This document shows, in pieces, positions 12,312-35,124 of a stretch of 38,696 nt of DNA; positions within the stretch are counted from its first letter, which is position 1, and each line of letters starts with the position of its first letter. The stretch is from Desulfobacteraceae bacterium (lineage in GTDB: Bacteria > Desulfobacterota > Desulfobacteria > Desulfobacterales > Desulfosalsimonadaceae). The stretch spans positions 1-38,696 of the forward strand of contig JAQIBZ010000577.1 of NCBI GenBank assembly GCA_027858815.1, given 5' to 3'. The translations under genes and the position numbers were made by a program. The notes under the pieces were generated by a model, which ran no database searches, was not told the origin of the DNA, and saw only the letters and a list, made by a program, of their open reading frames with translations.

Positions 12312-12695
12312 ATGTTGAAGAAACTTAGAGGAAACACTAAAGGTTTTACACTGATCGAACTGATGATCGTTATTGCCATCATCGGTATTTTGGCTGCCAT
12401 CGCCATCCCGAACTTCATCGCTTATCGTAACAAATCTTTCTGTTCAACTGCTGAATCAGATGCCAACTCCATTGCCGGCGGCATCGCAGATTATTTTGCT
12501 ATCCCGCAACGTACAACTAATCCGACAGACGCGGCGATGGTTGGTATCACTATAGCAAATACCAACGGAGTTGCCGGTGATATCAATACCACCCTGACCA
12601 TTACGGTACAAGATGACAGCAAGCGTTGCCCGGACGATTATCAAGGTGCCAGCGATTATTGGGCCAGCAATGTTTTTACAAAATACATCCGGTAA
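12312..12695 (+). CDS. pilA: Type IV pilin (PilA-like), pilin 1
   Basis: A 127-residue prepilin. The short leader MLKKLRGNTKG ends in Gly11, and prepilin peptidase would cut before Phe12; Glu at mature position 5 is present in [24 protein letters not shown], the hydrophobic assembly helix. The globular part is short (mature length 116) and carries two cysteines (44 and 106 of the precursor) that could form a disulfide. It ends NVFTKYIR, nearly identical to the end of pilin 2. AAGGAG precedes the ATG, a sigma-54 promoter lies upstream and a strong terminator downstream, so this looks like the abundant major pilin. Ser/Thr residues (RTTNPTD, NTTLTIT) are candidate glycosylation sites, but this is inference. 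Confidence 0.93.
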   Translation: MLKKLRGNTKGFTLIELMIVIAIIGILAAIAIPNFIAYRNKSFCSTAESDANSIAGGIADYFAIPQRTTNPTDAAMVGITIANTNGVAGDINTTLTITVQDDSKRCPDDYQGASDYWASNVFTKYIR

Positions 12696-12803: not shown

Positions 12804-14921
12804 ATGCCAATGATCTATAAAGCAAATAAATCCAAGCTACCGGCAGTCTTTTTATTACTGGCGCTAATTATCGGTGTCTGCTATTCAAACACCCTTAATG
12901 CCTCCTGGCATTTCGATGATTATCCAAACATCATAAATAATCCCGGTCTGCACCTGGAACATATTTCCATTGACGCCATTTGGAACTGTTTTTTCAATGC
13001 TACACCGTCGGGGGGGACTTTTCGTCCAATTGCTTACCTGACGTTTGCATTTAACTGGTTTACTGGAGGCACTCAGGTCGTTGGATATCATGTGATCAAC
13101 ATCCTCGTCCATATGCTTGCTGCGTTTTTTCTTTTTTTAACCATTCAACAAATATTAACAACACCCAATATTACCTGTGATTTACAGAAGAACGCATTTT
13201 CCATTGCCTTGCTCACTTCTGTCGTGTGGGCAGTTCATCCCATTCAAATACAGGCTGTAACCTATATCGTGCAGCGTATGACATCCATGGCTGCCCTTTT
13301 TTTTATCCTATCTGTGTGGGCCTATCTTTCCGGTCGAACGTCTTCAATTCCCTACAAAAAAACTTTATGGTATCTTGGATGTTTTCTTTCATGGACCTTG
13401 GCTGTTCTCACCAAACAAAATACAGTCACGCTGCCGCTTATTTTGCTGCTGCTGGAGTTTATATTTTTCCAAAACTGGCGGTCTCCTATGGTAAAGCGAT
13501 GCTATTGGGGTATTATCATTGTCGGTGTGCTGGTTTTGATTGCCGGAATATGTTTTTTGATTATCAATGGGGACGCCGGACCATATATGGGGAAATATCA
13601 AATACGGCCTTATACACCTATTGAGCGCTTGTTAACTCAGTTTCGGGTGGTGTTATTTTATCTTTTTCAGATTGTTTATCCGGTTCCTGGTAATTTCAGC
13701 ATTACGCATGATTTTATGATTTCAAGGTCATTACTTAATCCATGGACCACGCTGCCGGCCATTGGGGTAGTTCTGGGAATGGTATCGGTTTCAGTATGGG
13801 CGATATCCAAAGGTCCATTTTTGAAAATTATGGGTTTTTCGATTCTGTTTTTTTCAATTAACCATTTGATCGAATCTACTATTTTACCGCTGGAAATGGT
13901 GTTTGAACACCGTAATTATTTACCTTCATTTTTTTTGTTTATACCTTTTGCCATTGGCATAAATAAGGCCTTTGATATTTATCATAAACAAAGCAAACCC
14001 ATGTTTTATTTTCTGGTGCTTTCTACATGTGCACTCTTAATCAGCATGGGTATCAGCACCTATCTACGAAACATGGACTGGCAATCAGAAAAGACTTTAT
14101 GGCAGGATGCCATGAAGAAAGCCCCCCATTCCTCTCGCCCCCCCCATAATATAGCATTAGGGTATTATGAGCCTGCCGGAATGTATAATCAGGCAATAGA
14201 CCTCTATCATCACGCATTAGAATTAAATGATGAATCAATCGGATTTGAATCGACAATTTTTTTCAACATTGCGGCAATTTATTTCTCATCATTGCAAGAC
14301 TATGAGAAAACAATTGAATATGCTTTTAAGGCCCTCCAGATAGACAGAAACCATGACCGTGCACTCTATTTGCTGGCAAGATCTTTGGCCGAACTTGGGC
14401 ATTATGGAGACGCGTTGAATGTAATAGCGCCTCGTCTTCATAAAAAGAATACAAGCCCTGCAAATATGCACCTTAACGGTTTAATTTTGCTTAACCTATC
14501 ACAACCGGAGACGGCCTTGGTATGTTTCCAAAAATGCATGGCTCGAGATCCGGGCAACTGGCTATATCTGCGGGAAATCGGTTTTGCGTTGTCTGCCATG
14601 GAAATGCAGAATAGGGCGCGCTGGTTTTTTCGTCGTGCCAATGCATTATATCCAAATCAGCCAGAAATTTTGCTGGGCAGAGCTGCCGTCAATCTTGAAT
14701 ACGGATTGTTGAAAAAAGCTGAAACAAATGTCGAACAGTTTATTCTCAGCATTGGTATAGACAACGTTGAAAACTACTGGGTGAATGCAAGCGCTGCTCC
14801 ACTGGGGTTGCCGATTCCCTACTCACGACTTACCCCAATGATTTGCCGTTTTTTATTTAACCAGTCCGAAGGTTATGCTAAGATGTCTCAACGATTATTA
14901 AATATTTTTAGTGAAAAATAA
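12804..14921 (+). CDS. TMTC-like GT-C glycosyltransferase with TPRs, between two pilin genes
   Basis: A 705-residue polytopic membrane protein of a TMTC-like subgroup distinct from paralogs 1-3. The first outer loop has WHFDDYPNIINNP (35-47), then GTFRPIAYLTFAFN (71-84) and HPIQIQAVTYIVQRMTSMA (145-163); EHRNYLPSFF replaces the usual ADRYxYxP. TPR-like repeats fill about 440-660. Such proteins are candidates for moving a polyprenyl-phosphate sugar to an exported protein. It sits between two type IV pilin genes on the same strand, 25 bases before the second, which makes pilin glycosylation the most economical hypothesis. A pilin assembly or chaperone role through the TPRs is an alternative. 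No clear ribosome-binding site precedes ATG 12804; a second ATG follows at 12810. Confidence 0.82.
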   Translation: MPMIYKANKSKLPAVFLLLALIIGVCYSNTLNASWHFDDYPNIINNPGLHLEHISIDAIWNCFFNATPSGGTFRPIAYLTFAFNWFTGGTQVVGYHVINILVHMLAAFFLFLTIQQILTTPNITCDLQKNAFSIALLTSVVWAVHPIQIQAVTYIVQRMTSMAALFFILSVWAYLSGRTSSIPYKKTLWYLGCFLSWTLAVLTKQNTVTLPLILLLLEFIFFQNWRSPMVKRCYWGIIIVGVLVLIAGICFLIINGDAGPYMGKYQIRPYTPIERLLTQFRVVLFYLFQIVYPVPGNFSITHDFMISRSLLNPWTTLPAIGVVLGMVSVSVWAISKGPFLKIMGFSILFFSINHLIESTILPLEMVFEHRNYLPSFFLFIPFAIGINKAFDIYHKQSKPMFYFLVLSTCALLISMGISTYLRNMDWQSEKTLWQDAMKKAPHSSRPPHNIALGYYEPAGMYNQAIDLYHHALELNDESIGFESTIFFNIAAIYFSSLQDYEKTIEYAFKALQIDRNHDRALYLLARSLAELGHYGDALNVIAPRLHKKNTSPANMHLNGLILLNLSQPETALVCFQKCMARDPGNWLYLREIGFALSAMEMQNRARWFFRRANALYPNQPEILLGRAAVNLEYGLLKKAETNVEQFILSIGIDNVENYWVNASAAPLGLPIPYSRLTPMICRFLFNQSEGYAKMSQRLLNIFSEK

Positions 14922-14946: not shown

Positions 14947-15336
14947 ATGTCTGATAAATATATCATAAAGAGATCAAAAGGGTTTACATTAATAGAACTT
15001 ATGATTGTCGTTGCAATTATCGGCGTTTTAGCATCTATAGCAATCCCAAATTATATAAATTATCGAAATAAGGCCTACTGTAGTGAAGCAGAAACCAATG
15101 CCAATCAGATCGGCTCTGCCATTGCCGATTATTTCGGCAATGGCAACCGGGTCAACCTACCCACTGTCGACGACCTGAGAATAAAGTTAAAATTCGCTAA
15201 TCCGGGGGGTATTCAGGGTGATCCCAACTTAACGATTTCCATCCTGATAACTGATCGTACTGGCAGATGCCCGAAAGAATACCAGGAAGCCCAAGAGCAA
15301 TGGTCCAATAATGTGTTTACCAAATATGTCCGATAG
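14947..15336 (+). CDS. Type IV pilin, pilin 2
   Basis: A 129-residue prepilin: leader [12 protein letters not shown], cleavage before Phe13, Glu at mature +5 and the helix [24 protein letters not shown]. Cysteines at 45 and 108 match the pair in pilin 1, and the tail NVFTKYVR is shared, whereas the middle (about 60-100) differs. GGGAGG precedes the ATG. With only 25 bases from the GT-C gene it is probably co-transcribed with it rather than from its own promoter; I saw no sigma-54 motif here. It could be an alternative or minor pilin, or a silent or variant copy. The pilin identity is secure, the role is inference. Confidence 0.92.
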
Positions 15337-15548: not shown

Positions 15549-16271
15549 ATGATGAACCAGAAAAAATCTGATATTAATGATATCCTGCTAAGTGTTGTGA
15601 TCCCGGCATATAATGAAGAAGAAACCATCATGGAAATTATTGATCGGGTTTTGGATTCACCGTTTAAAAAGGAAGTAATTGTGGTTGACGACGGGTCAAC
15701 AGACAATACCCGTCATATTTTATCTAAAATTGAAAATTCAGTCATCAAAGTCATCTTTCATGAAAATAACGCAGGCAAGGGCAGCGCTGTGCAAACAGGA
15801 TTTGATGCCGCCACTGGCGATATTATTGTGATTCAGGATGCGGATCTTGAATATAATCCGGATGAGTATCCAGTGCTTCTCAACCCCATATTATCCGGTA
15901 ACGCAGATGTGGTTTATGGTTCCAGATTCGGCGGGCATGGTGAACACCGGGTGTTGTATTTCTGGCATTATGTGGGCAACCGCTTTCTCACGTTGCTTTC
16001 AAATATGTTTACAGATCTGAATCTGACCGACATGGAAACCTGCTATAAGGCATTCTCCCGCCAGGCCCTCCAGGGAATTCGAATCAATGAAAAACGGTTC
16101 GGTTTTGAACCGGAGATTACCGCATATATAGCGAAAAAAAAGCTTCGCATTTATGAAGTGCCGATTTCATATTACGGCCGGACCTATGAAGAAGGGAAAA
16201 AAATCAATTGGAAAGATGGCTTTCGCGCCTTGTGGTGCATTTTTAAATACAATCTTTTTATCCGGCAATGA
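15549..16271 (+). CDS. GT2 polyprenyl-phosphate glycosyltransferase, DPM1-like
   Basis: A 240-residue soluble GT-A enzyme: [12 protein letters not shown] (16-27), [10 protein letters not shown] (45-54), [12 protein letters not shown] (74-85), IQDADLEY (95-102) and [13 protein letters not shown] near the end. This is the pattern of bacterial DPM1-like polyprenyl-phosphate sugar synthases without membrane segments. It would make a lipid-linked sugar, mannose or glucose, from a nucleotide sugar at the cytoplasmic face. AAGGG precedes the tandem ATGATG start. The next gene, a GT-C protein, starts 14 bases after its stop, so donor synthesis and use are probably coupled. Confidence 0.82.
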
Positions 16272-16284
16272 AAACCCATATAAC

Positions 16285-18102
16285 GTGAAAGCAACTGTTT
16301 TTAATCAAGAAAAATTTTATAATTCAAGCCGATTTATTTTTTATTTATTTCTGGCCGCGTTTGCTTTGCGCATCGGTTTTTTTGCGGTAATGCGCGATTA
16401 TCCCCTCCTTTATATACAAAGCCTTGATGAAAAGTATTATGTGGATCTTGGCAAAATCATTGCCAGTGGTTCCCTTAGAGGCGAGCAAGGCGCTTTTTTC
16501 ATGGACCCTATGTATGGCTACTTTTTGGGGTTCATTTTTTTTGTATTTGGCGATAACCTTACCATCGTCCGGCTCATTCAGATATTGCTGGATGCCTTTA
16601 ATGTGGTTCTCATTTTCGCCATTGGCCGCAGGGTATGGGACCAGTGGGCTGGAATAGTTGCAGCGATCATTTGGGCCGCTTATATTGTTTCGTTTTATTA
16701 TACGCTGTTGATGCTCAAAGTCACCCTGGCGATAACAGGGCTTCTTGTATTCATGCTGTTGCTTTTAGTCGTCATTAAAAACCAGCGAAAGACGTCATGG
16801 TTTTTGACTGGTATGGGAGCGGGGATATTAAATTTTATTAGCGCGAATTTCATATTAATGATCCCGCTGACGCTGGTGTTTTATTGTTTCATTGAACGAC
16901 CCAAATGGCGAAGTTTTATAATCAATAGCGCTTTTGTTTTGGCGGGGGCCATGACGTTGCTATCAATAAATGGTATCCGCAATTATTTCGTGGCCGGTCA
17001 TCCCGTATTTTTAAATACCTCCTCTGGCCTGATACTGTATTCTTCAAATAATCCGGGTAACACTTCCGGCCTGTTTGATGTGCCAGCTTTTGCGCAATCC
17101 CATCCGGTTTCTTGCCAAGATGATTTTCTTAAAGAAGCGGAACGTAGAACCAGCAGGTCTTTGTCCCCCAAAGAGGCATCAATTTTCTGGCGAAACGCAA
17201 CATTCCGCGTATTAAAAGACAATCTGCAAATTATTCCGGTTCTCATTTTAAATAAGCTGAAATGGACTTTTGCAAACTATGAAATTACCATGAACCAGCC
17301 CTATCAGTTTGTTGCAAACTTCGCAGGGACGAATAAATGGCCGTTTCCCAATTATGCATTTGTGCTCGCCTTCGGATTACCTGGGCTGGCCATCGGCATT
17401 TCAAGGAGGAAACAGGTCGGGTGGCTGCTGGTTCCAGTATTGGTTATTCTGGCCACATTGATGATTTTTTACGTCTGCACCCGTTTCAGAATGCCAATGG
17501 TGCCGTTTCTGGTGATTGGAACAGGTATCTGTTTGCGGATAGCATTCGTTTGGGTCAAAGAAGGCAATTGGCGGAAAATTATTTTACTGGGCCTTGTTTC
17601 ATCAACGATTTTTTTGGTTTCCATGTCTATTTCGCCGCCTTCAGGTGACGGGTATAAGGAATTTGTGCTGGCAAAGGCATTTTACTCGCAGAACCATCAC
17701 GATAAAGCCGAAGCGTATGCTGTGAATGCGTTAAAAAAATATCCCGATAATTTGGATTTGCATATTCTGCTCGGACGTATTGCCACTAAAAAAGGTCTGA
17801 TTAATGAGTCAATTATGTATTATCAGGGCGCCATGAAAATCACCCCTGACAATTTTACCGTTAATTATGATCTGGCGATGATTCATATGGATTCCGGCAA
17901 GCCTGAACTAGCCATTCCTTATTTCGAAAAATGTTTAACGCTTAACCATCATATCCAAAGTATGTTTCATCTGGCCCGGGCGTATGAGGCCTGCGGCAAC
18001 AACCGGCAAGCTATCAAATATTATAGGGAGTTTTTGGAGTCAGCAAGCCCTGATGATCCGGGGCGTGAATATGCGAAAAAGCGATTAGCCGTCATAAGAT
18101 AG
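16285..18102 (+). CDS. GT39-like GT-C glycosyltransferase with C-terminal TPRs
   Basis: About 606 residues if it starts at GTG 16285; the track start at 16153 lies inside the upstream GT2 gene and adds residues with no family character. After the first membrane segment (about 17-36) the outer loop has SLDEKYYVDLG with the Asp-Glu pair (48-49) and FMDPMYGYFLG (72-82), the PMT_2/GT39 arrangement. Further membrane segments reach about residue 450, then three to four TPRs (about 455-600), for example HHDKAEAYAVNALKKYP and NRQAIKYYREFLE. Family knowledge suggests a polyprenyl-phosphate sugar donor, presumably supplied by the adjacent GT2. It converges on the minus-strand GT-C pair with 13 bases between stops and no terminator hairpin. 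The start choice is moderately certain. Confidence 0.78.
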   Translation: MKATVFNQEKFYNSSRFIFYLFLAAFALRIGFFAVMRDYPLLYIQSLDEKYYVDLGKIIASGSLRGEQGAFFMDPMYGYFLGFIFFVFGDNLTIVRLIQILLDAFNVVLIFAIGRRVWDQWAGIVAAIIWAAYIVSFYYTLLMLKVTLAITGLLVFMLLLLVVIKNQRKTSWFLTGMGAGILNFISANFILMIPLTLVFYCFIERPKWRSFIINSAFVLAGAMTLLSINGIRNYFVAGHPVFLNTSSGLILYSSNNPGNTSGLFDVPAFAQSHPVSCQDDFLKEAERRTSRSLSPKEASIFWRNATFRVLKDNLQIIPVLILNKLKWTFANYEITMNQPYQFVANFAGTNKWPFPNYAFVLAFGLPGLAIGISRRKQVGWLLVPVLVILATLMIFYVCTRFRMPMVPFLVIGTGICLRIAFVWVKEGNWRKIILLGLVSSTIFLVSMSISPPSGDGYKEFVLAKAFYSQNHHDKAEAYAVNALKKYPDNLDLHILLGRIATKKGLINESIMYYQGAMKITPDNFTVNYDLAMIHMDSGKPELAIPYFEKCLTLNHHIQSMFHLARAYEACGNNRQAIKYYREFLESASPDDPGREYAKKRLAVIR

Positions 18103-18115
18103 ACTCTTTATTATG

Positions 18116-19837
18116 CTATTGCGAATGAGGGGGAGCATAAAATATTACTTCGGAAATACGGAAATAATATTTTGGTGAAATATTTATTTGAGCAATTTCG
18201 TTAAGCTGGAATTCTTTTTTCAGCCGATCGGCCGGAAACACTTCATCGGTAAATAGATTGCATTTTTGAATCACCAATATCTGATCATAATACACATTCG
18301 CAAGATAATTTATTTTTTTTCGTTGACGAGTGGCCTCCTTGAAACAAATAGACCCGATACCGTGAATGATATAAAAATTCGCTCGATCGGAAATCAGCAA
18401 CAGTTTTTCATTTTTTATGTCATGATTTTTGTAAAGGTATTGAGTTATCCGGTTGTTGATATAATGGAAGTTGTTTTGTTTTAAAATGTGATGGTCCGCA
18501 GCAATTGGCCAGTAATAAAGCATTTGAACCAGAAGTAAAAAAAGCAGTAAATTTTTTGCTGACGAAAATTTATAATGGAAAATCCGATAAATACAGTAGA
18601 CAGAGGGGATAATAATAAACGGCAGAAGCGACATTGCCAGGCGATTGTCAATATCCGTGGTAAAATGTCCCCAAAAAAAAGATGTATAAAGGGCAAAGAG
18701 CAAAAACCCGGATAATGAAACATATAACCCGAACGCTTTGTCGGCTGGATTGATGGAATAAGGTTGTAATAGTAATGTTTTCCCGGCAAGATATATCCCC
18801 GCAACTGCCGCGATAAAGATTAAAAGTATAAATCCAAAATCTGCGTTCAGGCCGGTCAAAGAGAATACGTTCGGTGAAAAATTATGCAGAAAATTGCTCA
18901 GTCCAAACGTTTGGTCTGGTGTTTTTACTCCATCTGGACTCCAAATAGATGCATTAAAAAAGATAATCTGCCGTTGCCATGCCGAAGGTAAAAATAATAG
19001 GGGTATACAAAAAGTGGGAAAGCGGTATTTTTTCATAATTTCTGTGTTTAAGAAATATGGTGCCAATATAATCAGGCTGAAAAAAAATATAATGGATTCA
19101 TAACGGCAATTGGCAAGCAAAACCAGAGAGAATAATACGATTTCAGCGTATTCGACATCTTTGTGTCTTAAAAAAAGAATCAATGCCAGCAATACTATCA
19201 TGATAAAAAACAGGTTAATGGTTTCAAAGCCGCTTGACGTCACCCAGAATATAAAAATTGGAAAACTCGCCATTATAATCATGGCAACAATCCCATAAAA
19301 TTTTGAAAACATATGAAAAAATAACAAATAAAGCGCAAAAAGAATACCGATACCGGCTACAAAATTGACTGCCATGCCATTAAACGGGCTGTAGCCGATA
19401 AACGCGTGGAATAAGGATATAATAAAGGGGTATAATAAGGGTCGTTGATCTACGCTCTGGTCATAATCAAACGGATAATATTCCACCGCCAATCCCTGCA
19501 GGGGCATAGAAGCAGTTTTATTTTGGTGCATGGCCATGGATACACTGACCAAATTGGTCTCATCCGCCAGTATTTTGAATTTCGGGGGGGAGATATGAAA
19601 AATGAGCACCATTAAAACAATGGCAAATAACAGGGCAGGGATATGTTGCTTGATATTAGTCAGAAAATTATTTTTTAAGACATCTAAAATTAATGCTCCC
19701 CATAATACAAATGCAAAGAGCATGAAATAATACCCTGAATAATGAAAAGCCGGGGACAACCATTGGTCCGGAAGAGAAAATCCTAAAACAATGGCCAGCA
19801 AAGCGATAGCTAAAAATAATATAATTTTTTTAATCAT
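18116..19837 (-). CDS. GT-C-like polytopic membrane protein, tandem paralog B
   Basis: A 573-residue membrane protein, second in a two-gene minus-strand unit, starting 17 bases after the stop of its paralog. Two hydrophobic segments open the protein, then a loop with FKILADETNLVSVSMAM (87-103, Asp-Glu at 92-93) and QRPLLYPFIISLFHA (131-145). An acidic pair followed by RP-x-LYP matches the donor loop layout of PMT_2-like GT-Cs. More membrane segments reach about 450, and the C-terminal part of about 120 residues is soluble with no TPR. It is highly similar to the upstream paralog, with one stretch almost identical at DNA level. A glycosyltransferase function is inferred from fold and context. 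Confidence 0.72.
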   Translation of the reverse strand: MIKKIILFLAIALLAIVLGFSLPDQWLSPAFHYSGYYFMLFAFVLWGALILDVLKNNFLTNIKQHIPALLFAIVLMVLIFHISPPKFKILADETNLVSVSMAMHQNKTASMPLQGLAVEYYPFDYDQSVDQRPLLYPFIISLFHAFIGYSPFNGMAVNFVAGIGILFALYLLFFHMFSKFYGIVAMIIMASFPIFIFWVTSSGFETINLFFIMIVLLALILFLRHKDVEYAEIVLFSLVLLANCRYESIIFFFSLIILAPYFLNTEIMKKYRFPTFCIPLLFLPSAWQRQIIFFNASIWSPDGVKTPDQTFGLSNFLHNFSPNVFSLTGLNADFGFILLIFIAAVAGIYLAGKTLLLQPYSINPADKAFGLYVSLSGFLLFALYTSFFWGHFTTDIDNRLAMSLLPFIIIPSVYCIYRIFHYKFSSAKNLLLFLLLVQMLYYWPIAADHHILKQNNFHYINNRITQYLYKNHDIKNEKLLLISDRANFYIIHGIGSICFKEATRQRKKINYLANVYYDQILVIQKCNLFTDEVFPADRLKKEFQLNEIAQINISPKYYFRISEVIFYAPPHSQ

Positions 19838-21352
19838 CAGGTTTTATGAAGTTTTTATTTACGTAAATGAAAAGGTGTGTGTTTAAGGGATGCCTCGGAA
19901 ATACGAATATAATATTCGGGTGACACGTTTATCCTGGCTATTTTCTGAAGCCGGAAGCCGTCATCTAAAAGATTATCAGATATTAATTCATTGGTGTAGG
20001 GATTGCATTTTTGAAGCACGAGTATTTGATCGTAATACACATTAGTCAGATAATATATTTTTTTTCGTTGAAGGACGGCTTGTCTGAACCCGATAGACCC
20101 GATACCGTGAATAATAAAAAAATTAGGTCGATCGGAAATTATCAGCAATTTTTCATTTTTCATGTCATGATTGTTATAAAGATAGCGAATCACGCGTTCA
20201 TTGAGATAACAAGATGCATTTCGTTCGATAATGCGTTGTGCAGCAGCCACCGGCCAATAATAGAGCATTTGAACCAGAAGTAGAAAAATCAGTAATTTTT
20301 TTGCTGATGAAAATTTATAATGGAAAATTCGATAAATACAGTAGGCAGCAGGAATAATGATAAATGGCAGCATGGACATCGCCATTCGATTGGCGACATC
20401 CATGGTGAAATTTCCCCAGATGAATGATGAATATATACCAAAAAGCAACATTCCGGATAAGGAAATATATAATCCGAAAGCTTTACTGGTCGGATTGATG
20501 GTATGTGGATTCAATAGTAATTTTTTACCGGCAAGATATATTCCCGCAACTGCTGCAATAAAGATTATAGGCAAAAATCCAAAATCCGCGTTCATTCCGG
20601 TCAATGTAAATACGTTCTGGGAAAAAGTACCCAAAAAATTATTCATCCCAAATATATGATCATAAGTTTCCAGCCCATTATCGCCTTTAAGGTATGGATA
20701 GAAAAAAATGATTTGCCGCTGCCATGCCATGGGCAAAAAGAACAGGGGCATGCAAAAAGTTGGGAAACGATATTGTTCAATGATTTCTCTGTTTAAGAAG
20801 CATGGAACCAAGATGATCAGGCTGAAAAAAAAGATGATGGACTCATACCGGCAATTGGACAGTAGAACTAATGAGATAAGAACAAGTTCGGCGAATTTGA
20901 CGTCTTTGTGTTTTAAAAAAAGAAACAGCGTCAGTAGCACAGCCATGATAAAAAACAGGTTAATGGTTTCAAACCCGCTCGACGTGACCCAGAAAACAAA
21001 TATTGGAAAACTTGCCATGATGATCATGGCGATAATGCCATAATATATAGAAAACATATGAAAAAATAATAAATATAATAAAAAGAGAATACCGATGCCG
21101 GAGAAAAAATTAACCATCATGCCGTTATACGGACTATAGCCGAGCAGGGCGTGGAATAAGGATATAATAAAAGGATATAATAATGGTCGGGACCCCACAG
21201 TCTGGTCATAATCAAACGGATAATATTCCACCGCCAATCCCTGCAGGGGCATGGAAACTGTTTTATTTTGGTGCATGGCCATGGATACACTGACCAAATT
21301 GGTCTCATCCGCCAGTATTTTGAATTTCGGGGGGGAGATATGAAAAATGAGC
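19461..21352. repeat. Near-identical 147-bp segments shared by the two minus-strand paralogs
   Basis: Positions 19461-19607 and 21206-21352 match at 144 of 147 bases by my manual alignment; the three differences cluster around the AGAAGCAG/GGAAACTG stretch. Synonymous sites are also identical, unlike most of the gene pair, and a second similar block lies around the DVLKNNFL codons. The segment encodes the acidic donor loop (ADETNLVSVSMAM to EYYPFDYDQ). Gene conversion between the copies explains this better than protein-level constraint alone. Confidence 0.7.
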
Positions 21353-21582
21353 GCCATTAAAAAAATGGCCAACAATAGGGCCGGGGCGTGATTCTTGAGG
21401 TGCGTTAAAAAATTGTTTTTCAAGACATCTAAAATCAATGCTCCCCATAATACAAATGCAAAGAGCATAAAATAATACCCTGAATAATTAAATGCCGGCG
21501 TCAACCATCGATCAGGAAGACAAAATCCTATAAATAGAGCGATCAGGGTAATAACCAAAAATAATATTATTCTTTTAATCAT
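19855..21582 (-). CDS. GT-C-like polytopic membrane protein, tandem paralog A
   Basis: A 575-residue membrane protein and the upstream copy of a tandem pair; it shares ADETNLVSVSMAMHQNKT, MPLQGLAVEYYPFDYDQ and RPLLYPFIISLFHA with paralog B and aligns end to end with it. The order of membrane segments, acidic loop and soluble tail is the same, suggesting a PMT_2-like GT-C fold acting at the periplasmic face. The ATG has no good ribosome-binding site. Both genes run against all neighbours, with a divergent promoter region upstream. The copies differ most in the outer C-terminal part, where acceptor or donor preference might diverge. Confidence 0.72.
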   Translation of the reverse strand: MIKRIILFLVITLIALFIGFCLPDRWLTPAFNYSGYYFMLFAFVLWGALILDVLKNNFLTHLKNHAPALLLAIFLMALIFHISPPKFKILADETNLVSVSMAMHQNKTVSMPLQGLAVEYYPFDYDQTVGSRPLLYPFIISLFHALLGYSPYNGMMVNFFSGIGILFLLYLLFFHMFSIYYGIIAMIIMASFPIFVFWVTSSGFETINLFFIMAVLLTLFLFLKHKDVKFAELVLISLVLLSNCRYESIIFFFSLIILVPCFLNREIIEQYRFPTFCMPLFFLPMAWQRQIIFFYPYLKGDNGLETYDHIFGMNNFLGTFSQNVFTLTGMNADFGFLPIIFIAAVAGIYLAGKKLLLNPHTINPTSKAFGLYISLSGMLLFGIYSSFIWGNFTMDVANRMAMSMLPFIIIPAAYCIYRIFHYKFSSAKKLLIFLLLVQMLYYWPVAAAQRIIERNASCYLNERVIRYLYNNHDMKNEKLLIISDRPNFFIIHGIGSIGFRQAVLQRKKIYYLTNVYYDQILVLQKCNPYTNELISDNLLDDGFRLQKIARINVSPEYYIRISEASLKHTPFHLRK

Positions 21583-21919
21583 TGATTATAGCTTATACTT
21601 TTTTTATCATTTGAGACGATTTCAATAAAGCAAAACAGGTATTACAATGCATCCAGCGGATAAATCGATAACCCGTCTAAATGTGAAGGTTTATATAACA
21701 ATTGTCTTACGGTCTTCAAGATAAATCATCCACAAGATGGATTCAGGATGTCATTTTTTTTGATCGACGTAGGACATCAAACGTTTTTAGAGTCAGCATG
21801 TTAACTTGTCATAAATGGATTAAAAAAGTCTATCAAGTTTTGATGAAAACTATTAAAAAGATGAGTATTGCCCTGTTTTTTGTTTTAATTATTAATGAAA
21901 GCTGAATAACCTTATTCCC
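21583..21919. other. Divergent intergenic region
   Basis: It separates the minus-strand GT-C pair from the plus-strand GT2 gene, so it should hold promoters for both. On the minus strand a TATAAT-like box lies too close to the start codon to be convincing. The 67-codon track ORF at 21702-21905 has no recognisable domain; its last 20 codons (MKTIKKMSIALFFVLIINES) look like a truncated signal peptide, but no gene follows in frame. I see no terminator, repeat or RNA motif. Confidence 0.4.
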
Positions 21920-22660
21920 ATGCATGAAAAAATTATTTGCTGTTTGCCCACCTACAATGAAGCGGAAAACATTGCGGCAATCGTCAATGCCATTCTCCGT
22001 TTCGTTCCTCAATCATCCATTTTGATTATCGATGATCATTCTCCTGATGGAACTGGACAGATAGCCGATACGCTTTCTCACCAGGACTCTCGTATTTCTG
22101 TGCTCCATCGCCCGCAAAAGGAAGGTCTGGGAAAAGCGTATTGTCATGGTTTCCAAGTTGCTCTCGACCGGATGAAAGCGGATATTATAGTGCAGATGGA
22201 TGCGGACCTGTCCCATCCGCCGGAAAAACTCCCTGAAATGATAGACGCTATTCAAATGAATGATTTAGTGATCGGTTCCCGTTATATTCCAGGTGGTGGC
22301 ACGAAAAACTGGAATATGGCCCGTCGCATGATCAGCCGTTTTGGCGCTATCTATGCAAGAGTGTGGCTGGGTTTACCAGTCAATGATCCTACCGGCGGAT
22401 TTAAGGTTTGGCGAAGTGATCTGCTCAAACATGTGCTGGCTTGTCCCGTCAGATCGGAAGGATATGGTTTTCAGGTAGAAACTACCTTTATTGCCCGCTG
22501 TCTCGGTGCGCGCATCGTGGAAATTCCTATCTGTTTTTCGGACCGCCATGTGGGGCGGAGCAAAATGACAGCCGGAATTGCGTTTGAAGCATTTTGGCAG
22601 ATACCATTCATGCGGGTTCGTTGCCGTTATTTAAAGAAAAAATCAGGCTGTTATGAATAA
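21920..22660 (+). CDS. Polyprenyl-phosphate mannose synthase-like GT2 (DPM1/Ppm1 type)
   Basis: A 246-residue soluble GT-A enzyme with the strongest DPM1 signature in the window: CLPTYNEAENI (8-18), IIDDHSPDGTG (36-46), QMDADLSHPPE (92-102), VIGSRYIPGGG (117-127), NDPTGGFKVWR (155-165), SEGYGFQVE and SDRHVGRSKM. DPM1/Ppm1 enzymes transfer mannose from GDP-mannose to dolichyl or polyprenyl phosphate. Its stop overlaps the start of the next TMTC-like gene by eight bases, implying translational coupling and supply of lipid-linked sugar to that enzyme. No clear ribosome-binding site was seen. GDP-mannose is the most likely donor, though relatives also use GDP- or UDP-glucose or similar sugars. 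Confidence 0.87.
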   Translation: MHEKIICCLPTYNEAENIAAIVNAILRFVPQSSILIIDDHSPDGTGQIADTLSHQDSRISVLHRPQKEGLGKAYCHGFQVALDRMKADIIVQMDADLSHPPEKLPEMIDAIQMNDLVIGSRYIPGGGTKNWNMARRMISRFGAIYARVWLGLPVNDPTGGFKVWRSDLLKHVLACPVRSEGYGFQVETTFIARCLGARIVEIPICFSDRHVGRSKMTAGIAFEAFWQIPFMRVRCRYLKKKSGCYE

Positions 22661-24332
22661 AGGTAAATATAACTTATTATGGTCAACAATATTCATAGGT
22701 ATGACCTTTGCGCTGTATGTTGGCGTTACCCGGTTTCCTTTTTTGATCATAGATGACCAGGTTTATGTAACGGCGAATGAACATGTCCGGCAGGGCCTGA
22801 ACTGGGAAAACCTTCGCTGGGCTTTTACCACTGTTCATGCTGAATTCTGGCACCCCCTGACCTGGCTGTCTTTGATGCTCGATACCACTCTTTACGGCGT
22901 GACACCAGCCGGATATCATTTCACAAATCTGCTGCTGCATATCGCATCCGCAGTTTTGCTTTTTCTATCATTTGATTTGATTACTCGCCAACGTTTCCGA
23001 TCGTTCATTCTGGCTGTTCTGTTCGCTCTTCACCCGCTGCATGTGGAAGTTGTGGCATGGATCGCCGAGCGAAAAGAAGTCTTGTGCGGATTTTTCTGGA
23101 TCGCCGCGCTTTATGCGTATGCAAGGTATGTTCAAAACCCGGGCATCAGATGGTATGGAATAATTACATTGTTATTTATATTAGGGCTTATGTCCAAATC
23201 CATGATTGTGACTCTGCCGTTTAGCTTGCTGCTGCTCGATATCTGGCCTTTGCAGCGTTGGCAGTGGAACAGGAAGATTATCTTCGAGCTTGTGGAGGAA
23301 AAGATACCCCTCTTTTTTTTAAGTGCCATTGGCATTGGATTAACAATCTTTGCCCAACAAGCCGGTGATGGCATCGTCAATTTTGATGTTTACTCCCTGC
23401 CTGATCGTTTTGCAAATGTCCTGGTTGCCTATAAAATGTATGTTGTTAAAACTTTTTTCCCCTTTAACCTTTCTGTCTTTTATCCATTTCGAATCCATAT
23501 TCCGCTTATACAAACCATCAGCGCCATAGTCTTGCTGATTTTTATTTCCGCTTTGGGGGTTATTCTTTTTTTTAGGAAAAAACAGTATGTTATTATCGGA
23601 TGGTGCTGGTTTCTGGGTACTCTCGTGCCTGTGAGTGGCATTGTTAAAATCGGGGACTTTGCAATGGCGGATCGATATATGTACATGCCAATCGTCGGCC
23701 TGCTGTTCGGTTCTATCTGGCTGGCGGCTGACATGATGGGTGACCAGCGTACAGGGAAGATCATTTTTGGCATTATGTGCATAACCGCAATTATCCTTTC
23801 GGGAATTAGCACTCATTATTATTTGCTCTGCTGGCGGGATAACAATACATTATTTCGCCATGCAGCAAAAACAGCTGCGCCAAATTTTTTTGCGCATAAC
23901 ACACTTGGCCATATCTATACAAGCAAGGGGCAAATGATCGAGGCTGAACGACACTTTCAAATTGCGGTTTCCATGAGACCAGACAAACAAACATTGAGAC
24001 TGGATCTCGGACGTATCCTGGGATGGAACGGACATTTCGCGGAATCTATCCCGCAATTTCAAACTGTGATTCAAAAAAATCCGGAAAACCTTGAAGCGCA
24101 TTATTATATGGGATTGGCGTTGATAGGGCAGGGTAGACGCTCGGACGCATTGACACATTTTATCATAGCAGTTAAAGATGTAGTGGACATTCAAACAGCT
24201 ATTCAAAAACGACAAAAAGCAGGCGATGTGGAAGGCAGTCTGCTCTTGCTTGGCATTAGTGAAGAAACAACAACTATAAAAAAAAATATGGCCAGAGGAT
24301 ACAATCATTGGCGGGTCCACGTTGCACCGTGA
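22653..24332 (+). CDS. TMTC-like GT-C glycosyltransferase with TPR domain, coupled to DPM1-like gene
   Basis: A 559-residue polytopic membrane protein with IIDDQVYVTAN (32-42), EFWHPLTW (64-71), HPLHVEVVAWIAERKE (127-142) and GDFAMADRYMYMPIVG, the canonical TMTC-like set with the Trp-His-Pro retained. Three TPRs occupy about 411-510, followed by a short polar tail. The start codon lies inside the last codons of the DPM1-like gene (ATG 22653, GT2 stop at 22660). Animal TMTC proteins use dolichyl-phosphate mannose, so this pair closely mirrors donor synthase plus transferase. The acceptor is unknown; no obvious substrate gene is adjacent, and the next gene encodes a disulfide-forming enzyme. 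Confidence 0.87.
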   Translation: MNKGKYNLLWSTIFIGMTFALYVGVTRFPFLIIDDQVYVTANEHVRQGLNWENLRWAFTTVHAEFWHPLTWLSLMLDTTLYGVTPAGYHFTNLLLHIASAVLLFLSFDLITRQRFRSFILAVLFALHPLHVEVVAWIAERKEVLCGFFWIAALYAYARYVQNPGIRWYGIITLLFILGLMSKSMIVTLPFSLLLLDIWPLQRWQWNRKIIFELVEEKIPLFFLSAIGIGLTIFAQQAGDGIVNFDVYSLPDRFANVLVAYKMYVVKTFFPFNLSVFYPFRIHIPLIQTISAIVLLIFISALGVILFFRKKQYVIIGWCWFLGTLVPVSGIVKIGDFAMADRYMYMPIVGLLFGSIWLAADMMGDQRTGKIIFGIMCITAIILSGISTHYYLLCWRDNNTLFRHAAKTAAPNFFAHNTLGHIYTSKGQMIEAERHFQIAVSMRPDKQTLRLDLGRILGWNGHFAESIPQFQTVIQKNPENLEAHYYMGLALIGQGRRSDALTHFIIAVKDVVDIQTAIQKRQKAGDVEGSLLLLGISEETTTIKKNMARGYNHWRVHVAP

Positions 24333-24585: not shown

Positions 24586-25767
24586 ATGCGGCTGATTTGG
24601 AACCATAAAAAAACTATCATTCCCCTCCCATTTTCTTATTATTTTGTGCCGGCCACAATCATCGCCCTGACTGGTTTTTTCGATTCCATCTATCTGGCGG
24701 TATCTCATTACCGCAATTATGCTGACATGGGTTATCAGAGCTTTTGCGCGATTTCCCGATCTCTTAATTGCGATACGGTTTCCCAAAGCGCTTATTCCAT
24801 TTTCTTGGATGTTCCGGTGCCGATTTGGGGGATTCTGGGATATGGTTTTTTTATGTTCCTGCTGTGTTTTGCATGGGATAGAAAGGCTGAGAAAAAACGA
24901 GTCTGGACCCTGTTGATGCTGATCAGTTTGGCATTCAGCATTTACAGTGTTATCCTGGCATTTATCTCTTCCTATTATATCCACAGCTACTGTATCATGT
25001 GCATTTTGAGTTATGGAGTCAATCTGGCGCTTCTTTTTTATGCATGGATTATACGGAAACGATTTGCCTGTGAATCGATTTTCACTGCCGCCAAACTGGA
25101 TGTCCTTTATTTGTTGAGTTATAAAAAAATTGTGATTCCTGTTGGATTGGTTTTTGTCACAATGTCCCTTTTCATGATCTTTTTTTTCCCTCCTTACTGG
25201 CATATGAATCCGCCGGCGTTATCTAATACCATTCCCACCGGTGTCAATGAAGACGGTTATCCCTGGATCGGGGCCGAGCACCCAGAACTGATCATCACCG
25301 AATTTTCCGACTACCGGTGTTTTCAGTGTAAAAAAATGCATTATTTTCTCCGCCGGCTCATTGAAGCGCATCCGGAAAAAATTCGGCTGATTCACCGGCA
25401 GTTTCCCATGGACCATACTATTAACCCTCTGGTCACCATTCCTTTCCATACGGGCGCTGCCAAACTCTCGATGCTGGCGATATTTGCCGGGGAACATGGG
25501 AAATTCTGGGAAATGAACGATTATTTATTTAATTTGTTAAAAAATATTGAAGCGGTGAATATGAGAAATATTGCCGGAAAAATCGGCCTTGACCTTGAAA
25601 CCATGCGCCATGCTTTTCAGGACCGCCGATTATGGAATATATTATGGGGAGATATTAAGGAAGGTATCAAGGTTCATGAATTGACCGGCACGCCGGGCTT
25701 TGTTATTAAGGGTCAGGTATACGAGGGACAAATCCCAGCAGAAATTCTAAAACCATATCTTGAATAA
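24586..25767 (+). CDS. VKOR-DsbA fusion, periplasmic disulfide-forming enzyme
   Basis: A 393-residue fusion. The N-terminal vitamin K epoxide reductase domain (about 18-155) has four to five membrane segments, loop cysteines C54 and C62 (FCAISRSLNCDTVSQS) and the quinone-side CxxC C136-I-M-C139. A further membrane anchor at about 182-202 leads to a DsbA-like thioredoxin domain (about 225-393) with active site C245-F-Q-C248 and cis-proline in GTPGFVIKG (near 370). VKOR passes electrons from the thioredoxin partner to quinone, so the fusion is a self-contained oxidase making disulfides in exported proteins. GGAGG lies ten bases before ATG. Its neighbours are GT-Cs, and both window pilins have a cysteine pair, so it may serve them. 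Confidence 0.93.
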   Translation: MRLIWNHKKTIIPLPFSYYFVPATIIALTGFFDSIYLAVSHYRNYADMGYQSFCAISRSLNCDTVSQSAYSIFLDVPVPIWGILGYGFFMFLLCFAWDRKAEKKRVWTLLMLISLAFSIYSVILAFISSYYIHSYCIMCILSYGVNLALLFYAWIIRKRFACESIFTAAKLDVLYLLSYKKIVIPVGLVFVTMSLFMIFFFPPYWHMNPPALSNTIPTGVNEDGYPWIGAEHPELIITEFSDYRCFQCKKMHYFLRRLIEAHPEKIRLIHRQFPMDHTINPLVTIPFHTGAAKLSMLAIFAGEHGKFWEMNDYLFNLLKNIEAVNMRNIAGKIGLDLETMRHAFQDRRLWNILWGDIKEGIKVHELTGTPGFVIKGQVYEGQIPAEILKPYLE

Positions 25768-25786
25768 CAAAAATTTATGTTTTGAT

Positions 25787-27451
25787 ATGAAAACCTCAGC
25801 CAATCAAAAATCATACTGGACTTCTATTGTTTATGGCTTCATGATCGCAGGTGTTGTGGCGATCATCGCCCTTATGGCCAGCGTTCCGCCGGTCAGCCGG
25901 GATGCGCTGATTCACCATCTGGCCATACCGAAATTGTACCTGCGACATGGCGGTATGTTTGAGATTCCGGCGTTTTCCTTTTCCTATTATCCCATGAACC
26001 TGGATTTGCTGTATCTGATTCCGTTGTATTTTAAAAATGATATCTTCCCGAAATTTATCCATTTTGCTTTTGCTCTGGCAACCGCCTGGATGGTTTACCG
26101 ATATTTAAAACGCCGGCTCAATATTGAGTATGCGCTGTTGGGCAGTCTTTTTTTTCTTTCCATTCCCGTTATTGTGAATCAGTCAACCATTGTATATGTG
26201 GATTTGGGCCTGGTCTGTTTTTTGTTTGCCGCGCTGATGTATTTGTTCAAGTGGATTGAGTATGATTTTAAAATAAAATATCTGCTTATCAGCGCTGTGT
26301 TTTGCGGGTTTGCCATGGGAACGAAATACAATGGTCTGGTCGGTCTGTTTCTATTGGGTCTATTTGTGCCGCTTGTTTATGCACGATACCATGCTGAAGA
26401 GCAATCCCATGCCAGAAAAGCCATTGGGTATTCAGCAGTGTATGTTCTTATCGCATTGATTATTTTTTCACCCTGGATGATTCGCAATACGATCTGGACC
26501 GGAAATCCGGTTTATCCTCTGTATAACAGCGTGTTTAATTCAGGAGCGGCACACACTGAAGCAGTTGATGAAGATGAGCATGAGAAAGGTTCCCGCATGA
26601 ATCATTTCCAGATCCGTCGAGACCTGTACGGGGAATCCGGCCTTGAAATCGCGCTGATTCCCTTACGGGTATTTTTTCAGGGGAGAGACAATGATCCTAA
26701 ATATTTTGACGGCCGGGCCAACCCATTTCTGTTGTTACTGCCGATTTTTGCATTTTTGGGAATCCGGACAAATCCCCGGCAGATCAAAACAGAAAAATAT
26801 CTCATGCTGGGATTTTCTGTCTTCTTTCTTTTATTTGCCTGCGCCCAGACAGTGATTCGGATTCGGTATTTCGCGCCCATTTTCCCCCCATTGGTAATTC
26901 TATCCATGTTCGGCCTGCGTCATATCCAGAAAAATCTTTTGAGCCGGAATTTACAGATAGGAGCTTTTGCGAACCGGACATGTATTATCAGCATTATATT
27001 TGTCATGCTCGGCTTAAACGCAAAATACATGATGGAACGATTCAGTTATGCACAGCCTCTGGCTTATCTGAGCGGAAAAGTCAGCAGGGATCAATATATT
27101 CAGAAATTCCGGCCTGAGTATGCATCCATGCAATACGCTAATCGTAATTTAACCAAAAACGATCGAATTCTTGGTGTTTATACAGGCAACAGAGGTTATT
27201 ATTCGGATATCGATATGGTGTTCAGTCTGGATTTATTGCAAGACTTGGCAGCGGAAGCCAATACACCCGAAGATATCGCCGAAGGCCTGAAGAAACTTGG
27301 CATCACGCATTTGCTGGTGAATTATGAATTGTTTAATTTTTGGGTGAAAAATTACAGCCTGCATGAAAAACAGATGCTCAAGGATTTCTTTGAGAAAATG
27401 ACAGTTACAGAATTCTCAAAGGATCAAAACGGGTTGTTGAAAGTTTTGTAA
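25787..27451 (+). CDS. GT-C (phospholipid carrier-dependent) glycosyltransferase-like membrane protein
   Basis: About 554 residues from ATG 25787 (track start TTG 25760 overlaps the VKOR-DsbA stop). After the first membrane segment the loop reads PPVSRDALIHHLAIPKLYL and then FSYYPMNLDLLYL. This SRDAL...H.AIPK...YYPMN pattern is typical of bacterial GT-C-fold proteins often labelled phospholipid carrier-dependent glycosyltransferases. Ten or so further segments follow, and after about residue 420 a soluble domain (KNDRILGVYTGNRGYYSD, GITHLLVNYELF) similar to the C-terminal domains of other GT39-like enzymes. No TPR. It is 19 bases downstream of the VKOR-DsbA gene and probably co-transcribed. 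Donor and acceptor unknown. Confidence 0.75.
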   Translation: MKTSANQKSYWTSIVYGFMIAGVVAIIALMASVPPVSRDALIHHLAIPKLYLRHGGMFEIPAFSFSYYPMNLDLLYLIPLYFKNDIFPKFIHFAFALATAWMVYRYLKRRLNIEYALLGSLFFLSIPVIVNQSTIVYVDLGLVCFLFAALMYLFKWIEYDFKIKYLLISAVFCGFAMGTKYNGLVGLFLLGLFVPLVYARYHAEEQSHARKAIGYSAVYVLIALIIFSPWMIRNTIWTGNPVYPLYNSVFNSGAAHTEAVDEDEHEKGSRMNHFQIRRDLYGESGLEIALIPLRVFFQGRDNDPKYFDGRANPFLLLLPIFAFLGIRTNPRQIKTEKYLMLGFSVFFLLFACAQTVIRIRYFAPIFPPLVILSMFGLRHIQKNLLSRNLQIGAFANRTCIISIIFVMLGLNAKYMMERFSYAQPLAYLSGKVSRDQYIQKFRPEYASMQYANRNLTKNDRILGVYTGNRGYYSDIDMVFSLDLLQDLAAEANTPEDIAEGLKKLGITHLLVNYELFNFWVKNYSLHEKQMLKDFFEKMTVTEFSKDQNGLLKVL

Positions 27452-27549: not shown

Positions 27550-27765
27550 ATGTTAGCCATCAGATTGCCGGACGAAATCGAAAAAAGACTTGAATCCCTG
27601 GCTGAAAAGACGGGACGAACCAAATCGTTTTATGCCAGGGAAGCCATTATGGAGCATCTGGAAGATATAGAGGATTACTATCTTGCAGTCCATCGAATTG
27701 AAAATCCGCCCGAAAGAAGCTGGTCGTTAGAAGAATTGGAGAAGGATTTTGATCTGGAAGGTTGA
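27550..27765 (+). CDS. Antitoxin, ribbon-helix-helix (RelB/DUF6290-like)
   Basis: A 71-residue protein. The start MLAIRLPDEIEKRLESLAEKTGRTKSFYAREAI is a classic ribbon-helix-helix DNA-binding domain (residues 1-45). The acidic tail (IENPPERSWSLEELEKDFDL) would wrap the toxin. Antitoxins of this type bind and repress their own promoter and neutralise a RelE/ParE-like toxin. It overlaps the downstream toxin by 17 bases, typical of such pairs, and has AGGAGG before the ATG. Confidence 0.9.
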   Translation: MLAIRLPDEIEKRLESLAEKTGRTKSFYAREAIMEHLEDIEDYYLAVHRIENPPERSWSLEELEKDFDLEG

Positions 27766-28015
27766 ATTCGATGAACGGGCCAGAAAAGAATTGCGCAAGT
27801 TGGATCGACAGGCACAGGTTAATATCCTGAGTTATTTGAGAACCCGCATTGCCACGCACGAAGATCCCCGTCGATTTGGAGATCCTCTTCGGAAAACGTT
27901 GATCGGGTTATGGAAATACCGGGTAGGCCCTTACCGTATTATTTGTTATATTAACGAGAATGTTGTCACTGTCCGCGTTCTCCGTGTCGGCCATCGTAAA
28001 AATGTATATGAATAA
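27749..28015 (+). CDS. RelE/ParE-superfamily toxin
   Basis: An 88-residue basic protein: IWKVEFDERARKELRKLDRQAQ (N-terminal helix pair), DPLRKTLIGLWKYRVGPYRIICYI and VTVRVLRVGHRKNVYE. The GLWKYRVGPYRIIC-type strand and the final VGHRKxVY are characteristic of RelE mRNA-cleaving toxins, in which Arg, Lys and the terminal Tyr contribute to catalysis. It is probably a ribosome-dependent mRNA endonuclease counteracted by the upstream antitoxin. A terminator begins at its stop codon. It sits between glycosylation genes, which suggests an inserted stability cassette. Confidence 0.9.
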   Translation: MIWKVEFDERARKELRKLDRQAQVNILSYLRTRIATHEDPRRFGDPLRKTLIGLWKYRVGPYRIICYINENVVTVRVLRVGHRKNVYE

Positions 28016-28057: not shown

Positions 28058-29005
28058 ATGTATAAAAATAAAAAAATAGGCGTTGTTATACCCGCCCATA
28101 ACGAGGAAACCCAGATAGGCAAGGTCCTCGAAACCATGCCGGATTTTATCGATCAGATAGTTATTGTCGATGATAAGAGCACTGATAAAACCGTTGGAAT
28201 CATAAATTCTTATCAGAAAAAATTCCAGAATATCACCCTCCTTGAGCATAAAACGAATAAAGGGGCAGGGGGGGCAATGATAACGGCCTATAATTTTGCA
28301 AAATCGATGGATCTTGATGTGGTGGTCCGGATGGACGGTGACGGCCAGATGGCTCCAAAAGATTTGCCGGCATTGCTTGATCCGGTAGTTGAAGGGAAGG
28401 CTGATTATTCAAAAGGCAACCGTCTCTTTACCGGTGAGGCGTATCAGAAAATTCCGAAAGTCAGATATTTCGGCAATGCGTTTTTATCGTTATTTACTAA
28501 AATAGCATCCGGATACTGGCATGTGGCAGACTCGCAGTCAGGGTATACTGCAATAAACAAAAAAGCGCTTCAAATGATTGATTGGAATCAACTGTATACC
28601 TGGTATGGACATCCAAACGATATTCTGGTTCGTTTAAATGTGCAAAATTTTAGAGTTAAAGACGTACCCGTTGAACCGGTTTATAATATCGGTGAAAAAT
28701 CAGGGATAAAAATCGGACGCGCGATATTTAAAATCGGATGGTTGCTGATCAAGCTGTTTTTCTGGAGAATGAAAGAAAAGTATATCATTCGCGATTTTCA
28801 TCCACTGGTGTTCTTTTATGCGCTAGGTGGTTTATTCGGTATTGTTACTTTTCTGCTTTTTATTCGCCTTCTAATCCTATGGTATCTAACCGGCTATATT
28901 CCACCCATCAATGCGCTGGCGGCCATGTTTTCGTTCATGAGCGCCAGTTTGTTCACGCTTTTTGGAATGTGGTTTGATATGGAGGCGAATAAGGATTTGA
29001 AATGA
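28058..29005 (+). CDS. GT2 polyprenyl-phosphate glycosyltransferase with two C-terminal membrane segments (GtrB/DPM-like)
   Basis: A 315-residue enzyme. The GT-A domain has GVVIPAHNEETQIG (8-21), IVDDKSTDKT (36-45), TNKGAGGAMITAY (66-78) and RMDGDGQMAPKDL (91-103), the last giving the DxD-type metal site. Two hydrophobic segments near the end (FFYALGGLFGIVTFLLFIRLLI and the ALAAMFSFMSASLFTLFGMW region) are typical of GtrB-like and related lipid-linked-sugar synthases. It would add a hexose to polyprenyl phosphate for use by a GT-C enzyme. It starts 22 bases after the toxin terminator, with AGGA about 12 bases upstream. A truncated, diverged copy of its second half lies at 30119-30661. Confidence 0.85.
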   Translation: MYKNKKIGVVIPAHNEETQIGKVLETMPDFIDQIVIVDDKSTDKTVGIINSYQKKFQNITLLEHKTNKGAGGAMITAYNFAKSMDLDVVVRMDGDGQMAPKDLPALLDPVVEGKADYSKGNRLFTGEAYQKIPKVRYFGNAFLSLFTKIASGYWHVADSQSGYTAINKKALQMIDWNQLYTWYGHPNDILVRLNVQNFRVKDVPVEPVYNIGEKSGIKIGRAIFKIGWLLIKLFFWRMKEKYIIRDFHPLVFFYALGGLFGIVTFLLFIRLLILWYLTGYIPPINALAAMFSFMSASLFTLFGMWFDMEANKDLK

Positions 29006-29041: not shown

Positions 29042-29335
29042 ATGCGACTCATAGAATCAGAAAAGATGATTATTAAAAAGGTTGCACAAGAAATATTCGG
29101 TCCTGAAGTTAGAATATTTTTGTTTGGCAGTCGGGTAAATGATTCCTTAAAAGGCGGTGACATCGATTTATATATAGAAACAGAAAAGCATGCGCTACTT
29201 CAGGACAAAATATCATTATTGTCGCTTCTGAAATTAACTCTTGGGGATCAAAAGATTGATGTGGTGGTCAATGCGCCGAATAAAAATGACCAGAAAATTT
29301 TTCACATTGCTCGACAAACAGGAATTGAGTTATGA
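29042..29335 (+). CDS. MNT-type minimal nucleotidyltransferase (antitoxin of HEPT/MNT pair)
   Basis: A 97-residue minimal nucleotidyltransferase: RIFLFGSRVNDSLKGGDIDLYIE contains the GS-x(9-10)-DxD motif that binds nucleotide and metal, and QKIDVVVNA supplies the later acidic strand. In MntA/HepT systems this protein AMPylates and thereby inactivates the HEPT toxin. The gene overlaps the next one by four bases (ATGA). It lies between a GT2 gene and that gene's truncated copy. Confidence 0.87.
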   Translation: MRLIESEKMIIKKVAQEIFGPEVRIFLFGSRVNDSLKGGDIDLYIETEKHALLQDKISLLSLLKLTLGDQKIDVVVNAPNKNDQKIFHIARQTGIEL

Positions 29336-29763
29336 CCTTTTCAGATATCTATAAAGTTTTGGATTTACATTTCAGCCGGGCGGACAAAGCTGCGGATGAA
29401 ATCAGTCGGATTCAACTGGATGCCCATACTTTCGACGATTTTGAAGCTGTGAAAACTATTGATACGTTCATATACCGCTTTTCAAAAATCCAGGATTACA
29501 TGGGAGAAAAATTATTTCCCGTGGTTCTTGATATGCTGGGCGAATATAAATCTTCCTTGTCGTTTATGGATATTCTAAATAAACTTGAACGGTTGGAATT
29601 TATTCAATCCGTCCGACAATGGATTAATTTCAGGGAAATCAGAAACACCTTAACTCATGAATATCCGGACAATGAGAAAGAAATCATTGAAGGCATTAAG
29701 CTTGCCGTGAACGCTTATTCCGAAATCAAAAACATTTACGCAACCATTAATAAAAGGCTTTAG
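29332..29763 (+). CDS. HEPT-domain toxin of the MNT/HEPT pair
   Basis: A 143-residue all-helical protein with the HEPT signature REIRNTLTHEY (an R-x4-6-H-x-Y ribonuclease motif) at about residues 106-116. HEPT toxins cleave RNA and are silenced by their MNT partner, encoded immediately upstream with a four-base overlap. The length and late position of the motif fit the MNT-linked HEPT family rather than the shorter DUF86 type. Some members have an abortive-infection role, but nothing here shows which role applies. Confidence 0.85.
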   Translation: MTFSDIYKVLDLHFSRADKAADEISRIQLDAHTFDDFEAVKTIDTFIYRFSKIQDYMGEKLFPVVLDMLGEYKSSLSFMDILNKLERLEFIQSVRQWINFREIRNTLTHEYPDNEKEIIEGIKLAVNAYSEIKNIYATINKRL

Positions 29764-32846: not shown

Positions 32847-32871
32847 AAATGACATAAAGTTATATAATTAA

Positions 32872-35072: not shown

Positions 35073-35124
35073 ACGATATTGACGATATTTATACATCCGA
35101 TAGAGACAGTGGAATCCGACTAAT

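Follow-up and report, generated by a model that had tools for sequence, protein, structure and literature searches.

A VKOR-DsbA fusion in a conserved pilin/glycosyltransferase cassette of Desulfobacterota: a probable pilin-dedicated thiol oxidase

The analysed window (the whole 38,696-nt stretch of a Desulfobacteraceae genome, contig JAQIBZ010000577.1) carries a gene for a VKOR-DsbA fusion, which, judging from its sequence and surroundings, is probably a self-contained, quinone-coupled thiol oxidase whose main client is the pilin encoded in its own cassette. Pointing to this are the architecture and invariant catalytic residues of the fusion, the gene order, the confinement of a cysteine pair to the pilin, the co-occurrence of pilin and fusion, and the near absence of DsbB. 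Because the conserved gene set encodes a pilin with an invariant cysteine pair together with likely sugar-adding enzymes, the fusion probably serves one pilus and not the whole cell. Disulfide formation is normally regarded as a general housekeeping service. In an order largely without DsbB, where the fusion accompanies one pilin type, a substrate-dedicated oxidase becomes a testable idea. On this view the pilin of these sulfate reducers should contain an invariant disulfide, and the idea is also relevant to cable bacteria and their PilA.

A complete VKOR-DsbA fusion lying between GT-C genes, as proposed in the original prediction, was confirmed by the 393-aa open reading frame, its Pfam domains and six invariant cysteines (Table 1). 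Residues 23-154 match VKOR (PF07884; 95.6 bits versus a cut-off of 27.5) and residues 225-392 match Thioredoxin_4 and DSBA (PF01323). All six catalytic cysteines (C54, C62, C136-IM-C139 and C245-FQ-C248) are invariant among 13 aligned homologues, as is T369-P370, the presumed cis-Pro loop. In the structure model (pLDDT 83.8, 13 sequences) the VKOR core is built of four helices (residues 17-46, 78-94, 107-132 and 137-160), and a fifth predicted helix (residues 180-200) joins it to the thioredoxin-type C-terminal domain. The protein thus combines the features of a VKOR (a conserved loop cysteine pair plus CxxC at the fourth helix) with those of VKOR-thioredoxin proteins (a fused thioredoxin-fold domain with CxxC and a TP motif). 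Foldseek matched the model to DsbA-like proteins, human and fish VKOR and Synechococcus VKOR, in agreement with a profile search of the fusion against PDB sequences. The Synechococcus VKOR-thioredoxin fusion (PDB 3kp9, 4nv5) has the same succession of VKOR domain, further helix and thioredoxin-fold domain, and both proteins carry the loop cysteine pair and CxxC; however, the partner domain here matches DSBA/Thioredoxin_4, and the gene lies inside a pilin/glycosyltransferase cassette. A chance reading frame was ruled out by homologues of 37-72% identity, near full-length in most of 80 loci.

Table 1 Coordinates of the fusion, its domains and the neighbouring genes in the window.
Feature	Position	Strand	Remarks
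Type IV pilin 1	12312..12695	+	likely substrate; prepilin C44 and C106
Large membrane TPR/GT-C-like protein	12804..14921	+	in relatives usually directly 5' of the fusion
Type IV pilin 2	14947..15336	+	likely substrate; cysteine pair as in pilin 1
Extra glycosyltransferase genes between pilin 2 and fusion	15549..24332	.	about 9 kb
VKOR-DsbA fusion gene	24586..25767	+	393 aa, open frame throughout; ribosome-binding-like GGAGG just 5' of ATG
VKOR domain of fusion	24652..25047	+	four predicted TM helices
VKOR-domain cysteine codons	C54 24745-24747, C62 24769-24771, C136 24991-24993, C139 25000-25002	+	
DsbA-like thioredoxin domain of fusion	25258..25761	+	C245 25318-25320, C248 25327-25329
GT-C glycosyltransferase (PMT_2/PMT)	25760..27451	+	usual next gene 3' of the fusion; likely true start ATG 25787
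GT2 (family 2 glycosyltransferase)	28058..29005	+	frequent downstream cassette partner

The window also contains two type IV pilins, several PMT_2/TPR proteins, family-2 glycosyltransferases and a pseudaminic-acid-type gene set. The fusion is flanked by a PMT_2 + TPR gene (22653-24332) and the PMT_2/PMT gene listed in Table 1, both above the Pfam cut-off. An 8-bp overlap of the latter with the fusion was dropped, its likelier start being the in-frame ATG 19 nt past the fusion stop. The source assembly (4.85 Mb, 95% complete, 6% contamination), whose closest named relatives are Desulfobacteraceae/Desulfobacterales genomes, was searched for other DsbA, DsbB or VKOR proteins, as the original prediction had suggested: VKOR is present in one copy (the fusion), DsbB gave no match above the cut-off, and DsbA-type domains occur in the fusion and in one 129-aa frame that is cut by the end of its contig (C503).

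The cysteine pair claimed for both pilins of the window was confirmed: downstream of the cleavage site each has two cysteines and no more, and those of one pilin align with those of the other. The pair (mature positions 33 and about 95) is invariant in 55/55 scored pilins from fusion loci, and in a second alignment (52 pilins) the same holds for C44 and C106 of the window prepilin. There is no conserved cysteine pair in 56 proteins of the downstream GT-C family, where a single cysteine is strongly conserved, nor in 51 TPR/GT-C proteins; among the cassette families examined the invariant pair is found only in the pilin. Foldseek retrieved nothing significant for the pilin model.

In the proposed pathway, the periplasmic DsbA-like domain (CFQC) would oxidise Cys33/Cys95 of the pilin, while the VKOR domain would take the electrons via C54/C62 to C136/C139 and hand them to a membrane quinone, presumably menaquinone. 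The pilin would be held in the inner membrane before polymerisation, then glycosylated by the neighbouring GT-C enzymes and then assembled. We infer the direction of electron flow, the quinone, the pilin as substrate and the order relative to glycosylation; the chemistry of the fusion, its quinone and its substrate are suggested by analogy with the VKOR and DsbA families and with VKOR/MdbA of Actinomyces oris.

A second line of evidence comes from 80 loci, which were fetched by similarity to the fusion sequence alone, so that their neighbours are unselected. The original prediction had suggested checking for co-occurrence of the fusion with TMTC-like genes across genomes; a link of the fusion to a pilin/glycosyltransferase cassette is borne out by a conserved order in these loci, usually pilin - TPR/GT-C - fusion - GT-C, often with GT2. 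The loci belong to Desulfobacterales and Desulfobulbales, including Electrothrix and Electronema; Desulfosarcina alkanivorans, Desulfobulbus rhabdoformis and Desulfofustis glycolicus are among the carriers in culture. When only loci with enough flank were scored, GT-C was directly 3' of the fusion in 54/67 (median gap 18.5 nt), a TPR/GT-C or pilin gene directly 5' of it in 49/62, and a pilin no more than 6.5 kb 5' of it in 32/42. The extra glycosyltransferase genes of the window are missing in two close relatives from its genus (L025 and L028), whose pilin 2 gene is immediately followed by the fusion. In genus g40 and its kin, a subclade inside the cassette clade, the fusion is located apart from the pilin. 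A quick tree places the VKOR-DsbA fusions of other Desulfobacterota lineages outside the cassette clade, and no pilin/GT-C cassette was seen beside them. No description of a VKOR-DsbA/pilin cassette turned up in the literature searched, which does not in itself prove the absence of prior work.

Co-occurrence was assessed in 253 genomes of the order of the source genome, a sample that replaced a phylum-wide one too thin in carriers. The fusion was counted in 73 of them (80 VKOR-positive genomes minus 7 with only short frames, by a frame-length criterion), a pilin DNA signature, whose reversed control pattern gave occasional chance matches, in 68, and both in 53. The signature is thus present in 53/73 fusion genomes versus 15/180 others (Fisher p = 2.5e-24, uncorrected for shared ancestry), and 42 of the 45 pilin sites sharing a contig with VKOR are within 8 kb of it. 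Among the 15 signature-only genomes, 4 (G476, G532, G580 and G600) have no pilin near the match, as holds also for one site in G615, and 8 (G016, G054, G369, G498, G567, G573, G617 and G632) have the pilin near the downstream-side contig end, which makes the absence of the fusion uninformative; the 3 exceptions (G603, G615 and G654) carry the signature, and no fusion was found in them. Fusion-only genomes include four (G467, G504, G612 and G618) with a Cys-pair pilin that the strict pattern missed and four (G528, G575, G576 and G653) whose fusion is more distant, with a score no higher than about 150 bits.

Two other readings have to be set against a pilin-dedicated oxidase. The fusion may be the general disulfide-forming enzyme of the cell that merely travels with the pilin cassette, which would suit its being the sole VKOR in a genome where no DsbB was found, and usually the sole VKOR/DsbB-type enzyme wherever it occurs in the order; moreover, VKOR/MdbA is a general oxidative-folding pair in Actinomyces (PMC5478893). 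We consider this unlikely. DsbB was detected in 3/253 genomes and most relatives are without both VKOR and DsbB, hence the lineage can do without a general enzyme of this type. A general Dsb enzyme would also be broadly present independently of one substrate, whereas the fusion, found in 73/253 genomes, tracks the Cys-pair pilin and keeps its gene neighbours. The original prediction had named a sole general enzyme with variable neighbours as the outcome that would speak against it: the fusion is indeed the only enzyme of the VKOR/DsbB type in this genome, but its neighbours are conserved. Counting against a dedicated role are the separation of fusion and pilin in g40, the three exceptional genomes, and the second, truncated DsbA-like gene in the genome of the window. 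Genetic linkage does not prove the substrate, and the fusion could also oxidise other exported proteins.

The other reading, in which the GT-C enzymes are themselves oxidised by the fusion, or the fusion is directly coupled to glycan transfer like the thioredoxin-fold subunits of eukaryotic oligosaccharyltransferase (OST), draws on the GT-C gene being the most constant neighbour, directly 3' at a median distance of about 18 nt. It is nevertheless very improbable, as GT-C and TPR/GT-C proteins have no conserved cysteine pair, several genomes have the same GT-C without the fusion (beside a different pilin class or none), and no fusion of an oxidase with a glycosyltransferase was seen. An OST with OST3/6-like subunits has an STT3-type catalytic subunit; no window protein matched the STT3 family and the GT-C proteins match PMT_2/PMT. 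The coordination of disulfide formation with glycosylation proposed at the outset stands as gene linkage but finds no support as a mechanistic parallel to eukaryotic OST. The oxidase follows the pilin cysteine pattern and not glycosylation as such, and what connects it to glycosylation appears to be the pilin, as a substrate of both.

The dedicated oxidase has a counterpart in A. oris, where the VKOR-recycled DsbA-type oxidase MdbA is required for pilin folding and links menaquinone to pilus assembly (PMC5478893). In both cases a VKOR-linked DsbA-type oxidase is tied to a pilus, but A. oris has separate genes, sortase-assembled Gram-positive pili and an essential MdbA, while here there is a single fusion beside type IV pilins, known from genomes alone. 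In PMC10580974, the pilA cluster of cable bacteria (Electrothrix/Electronema) is described as comprising PilA, TPR proteins and sugar-modifying enzymes, and PilA reportedly ranks first in expression among the proteins of the Ca. Electronema aureum proteome. The gene set of a Ca. Electronema locus (L109) is similar to this cluster. In L109, L099 and L100 the fusion adjoins GT-C, whereas passages on the cluster in that paper mention no VKOR or disulfide role, and neither 'vitamin K' nor 'thioredoxin' appears in its main text.

In relatives without the fusion, the same GT-C can accompany a pilin with Cys29 and a C-terminal cysteine. Such sister cassettes (L150, L151, L153, L154, L275, L276, L280 and L282, with the same GT-C in the longer ones) also have ABC ATPase/permease genes and a one-helix CxxC protein of TPR-like character (CPWC, CSWC, CSIC or CITC), which is absent from all 81 fusion loci searched. 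The Cys29/C-terminal-Cys pilin class occurs in 13/253 genomes and the fusion in 0/13 of these, an exclusivity that is only moderately significant given an expected overlap of about 4. One GT-C contig (L155) encodes a pilin devoid of cysteines, and no recognisable thiol enzyme was found on it. Pilus-linked ABC transporter genes are also known as PilG/PilH/PilI of Myxococcus xanthus (PMC3724824); the likeness is by gene set, and the resembling genes occur only in relatives, outside the window. Tentatively, Desulfobacterota pilus cassettes may carry interchangeable, pilin-class-specific thiol modules, i.e. the VKOR-DsbA fusion for Cys33/Cys95 and the CxxC-TPR protein with an ABC transporter for Cys29/C-terminal Cys. 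Lineages without a general DsbB/VKOR pathway, cable bacteria included, might thus reserve disulfide formation for one surface fibre and tie pilus assembly to the quinone pool.

Several other features were observed around the cassette. Positions 30733-36174 hold an apparent pseudaminic-acid gene set (PseB-, PseC-, PseF- and PseI-like), in which a glycosyltransferase-28/GNAT fusion (33567-35072) looks like PseG joined to PseH. Two adjoining PMT_2 proteins of 573 and 575 aa are encoded on the opposite strand (18116-21582) and are possibly a tandem duplication. A ParE-type toxin-like gene (27749-28015) lies within the glycosylation region, and a nucleotidyltransferase/HI0074-like pair of the MNT-HEPN type (29042-29763) lies between cassette genes; a pair of this type also adjoins GT-C in L025 (74-79% identity). 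In several relatives (L024, L025, L028 and L029), a large ORF (about 900 aa) whose start is PPDK-like is located beside the cassette.
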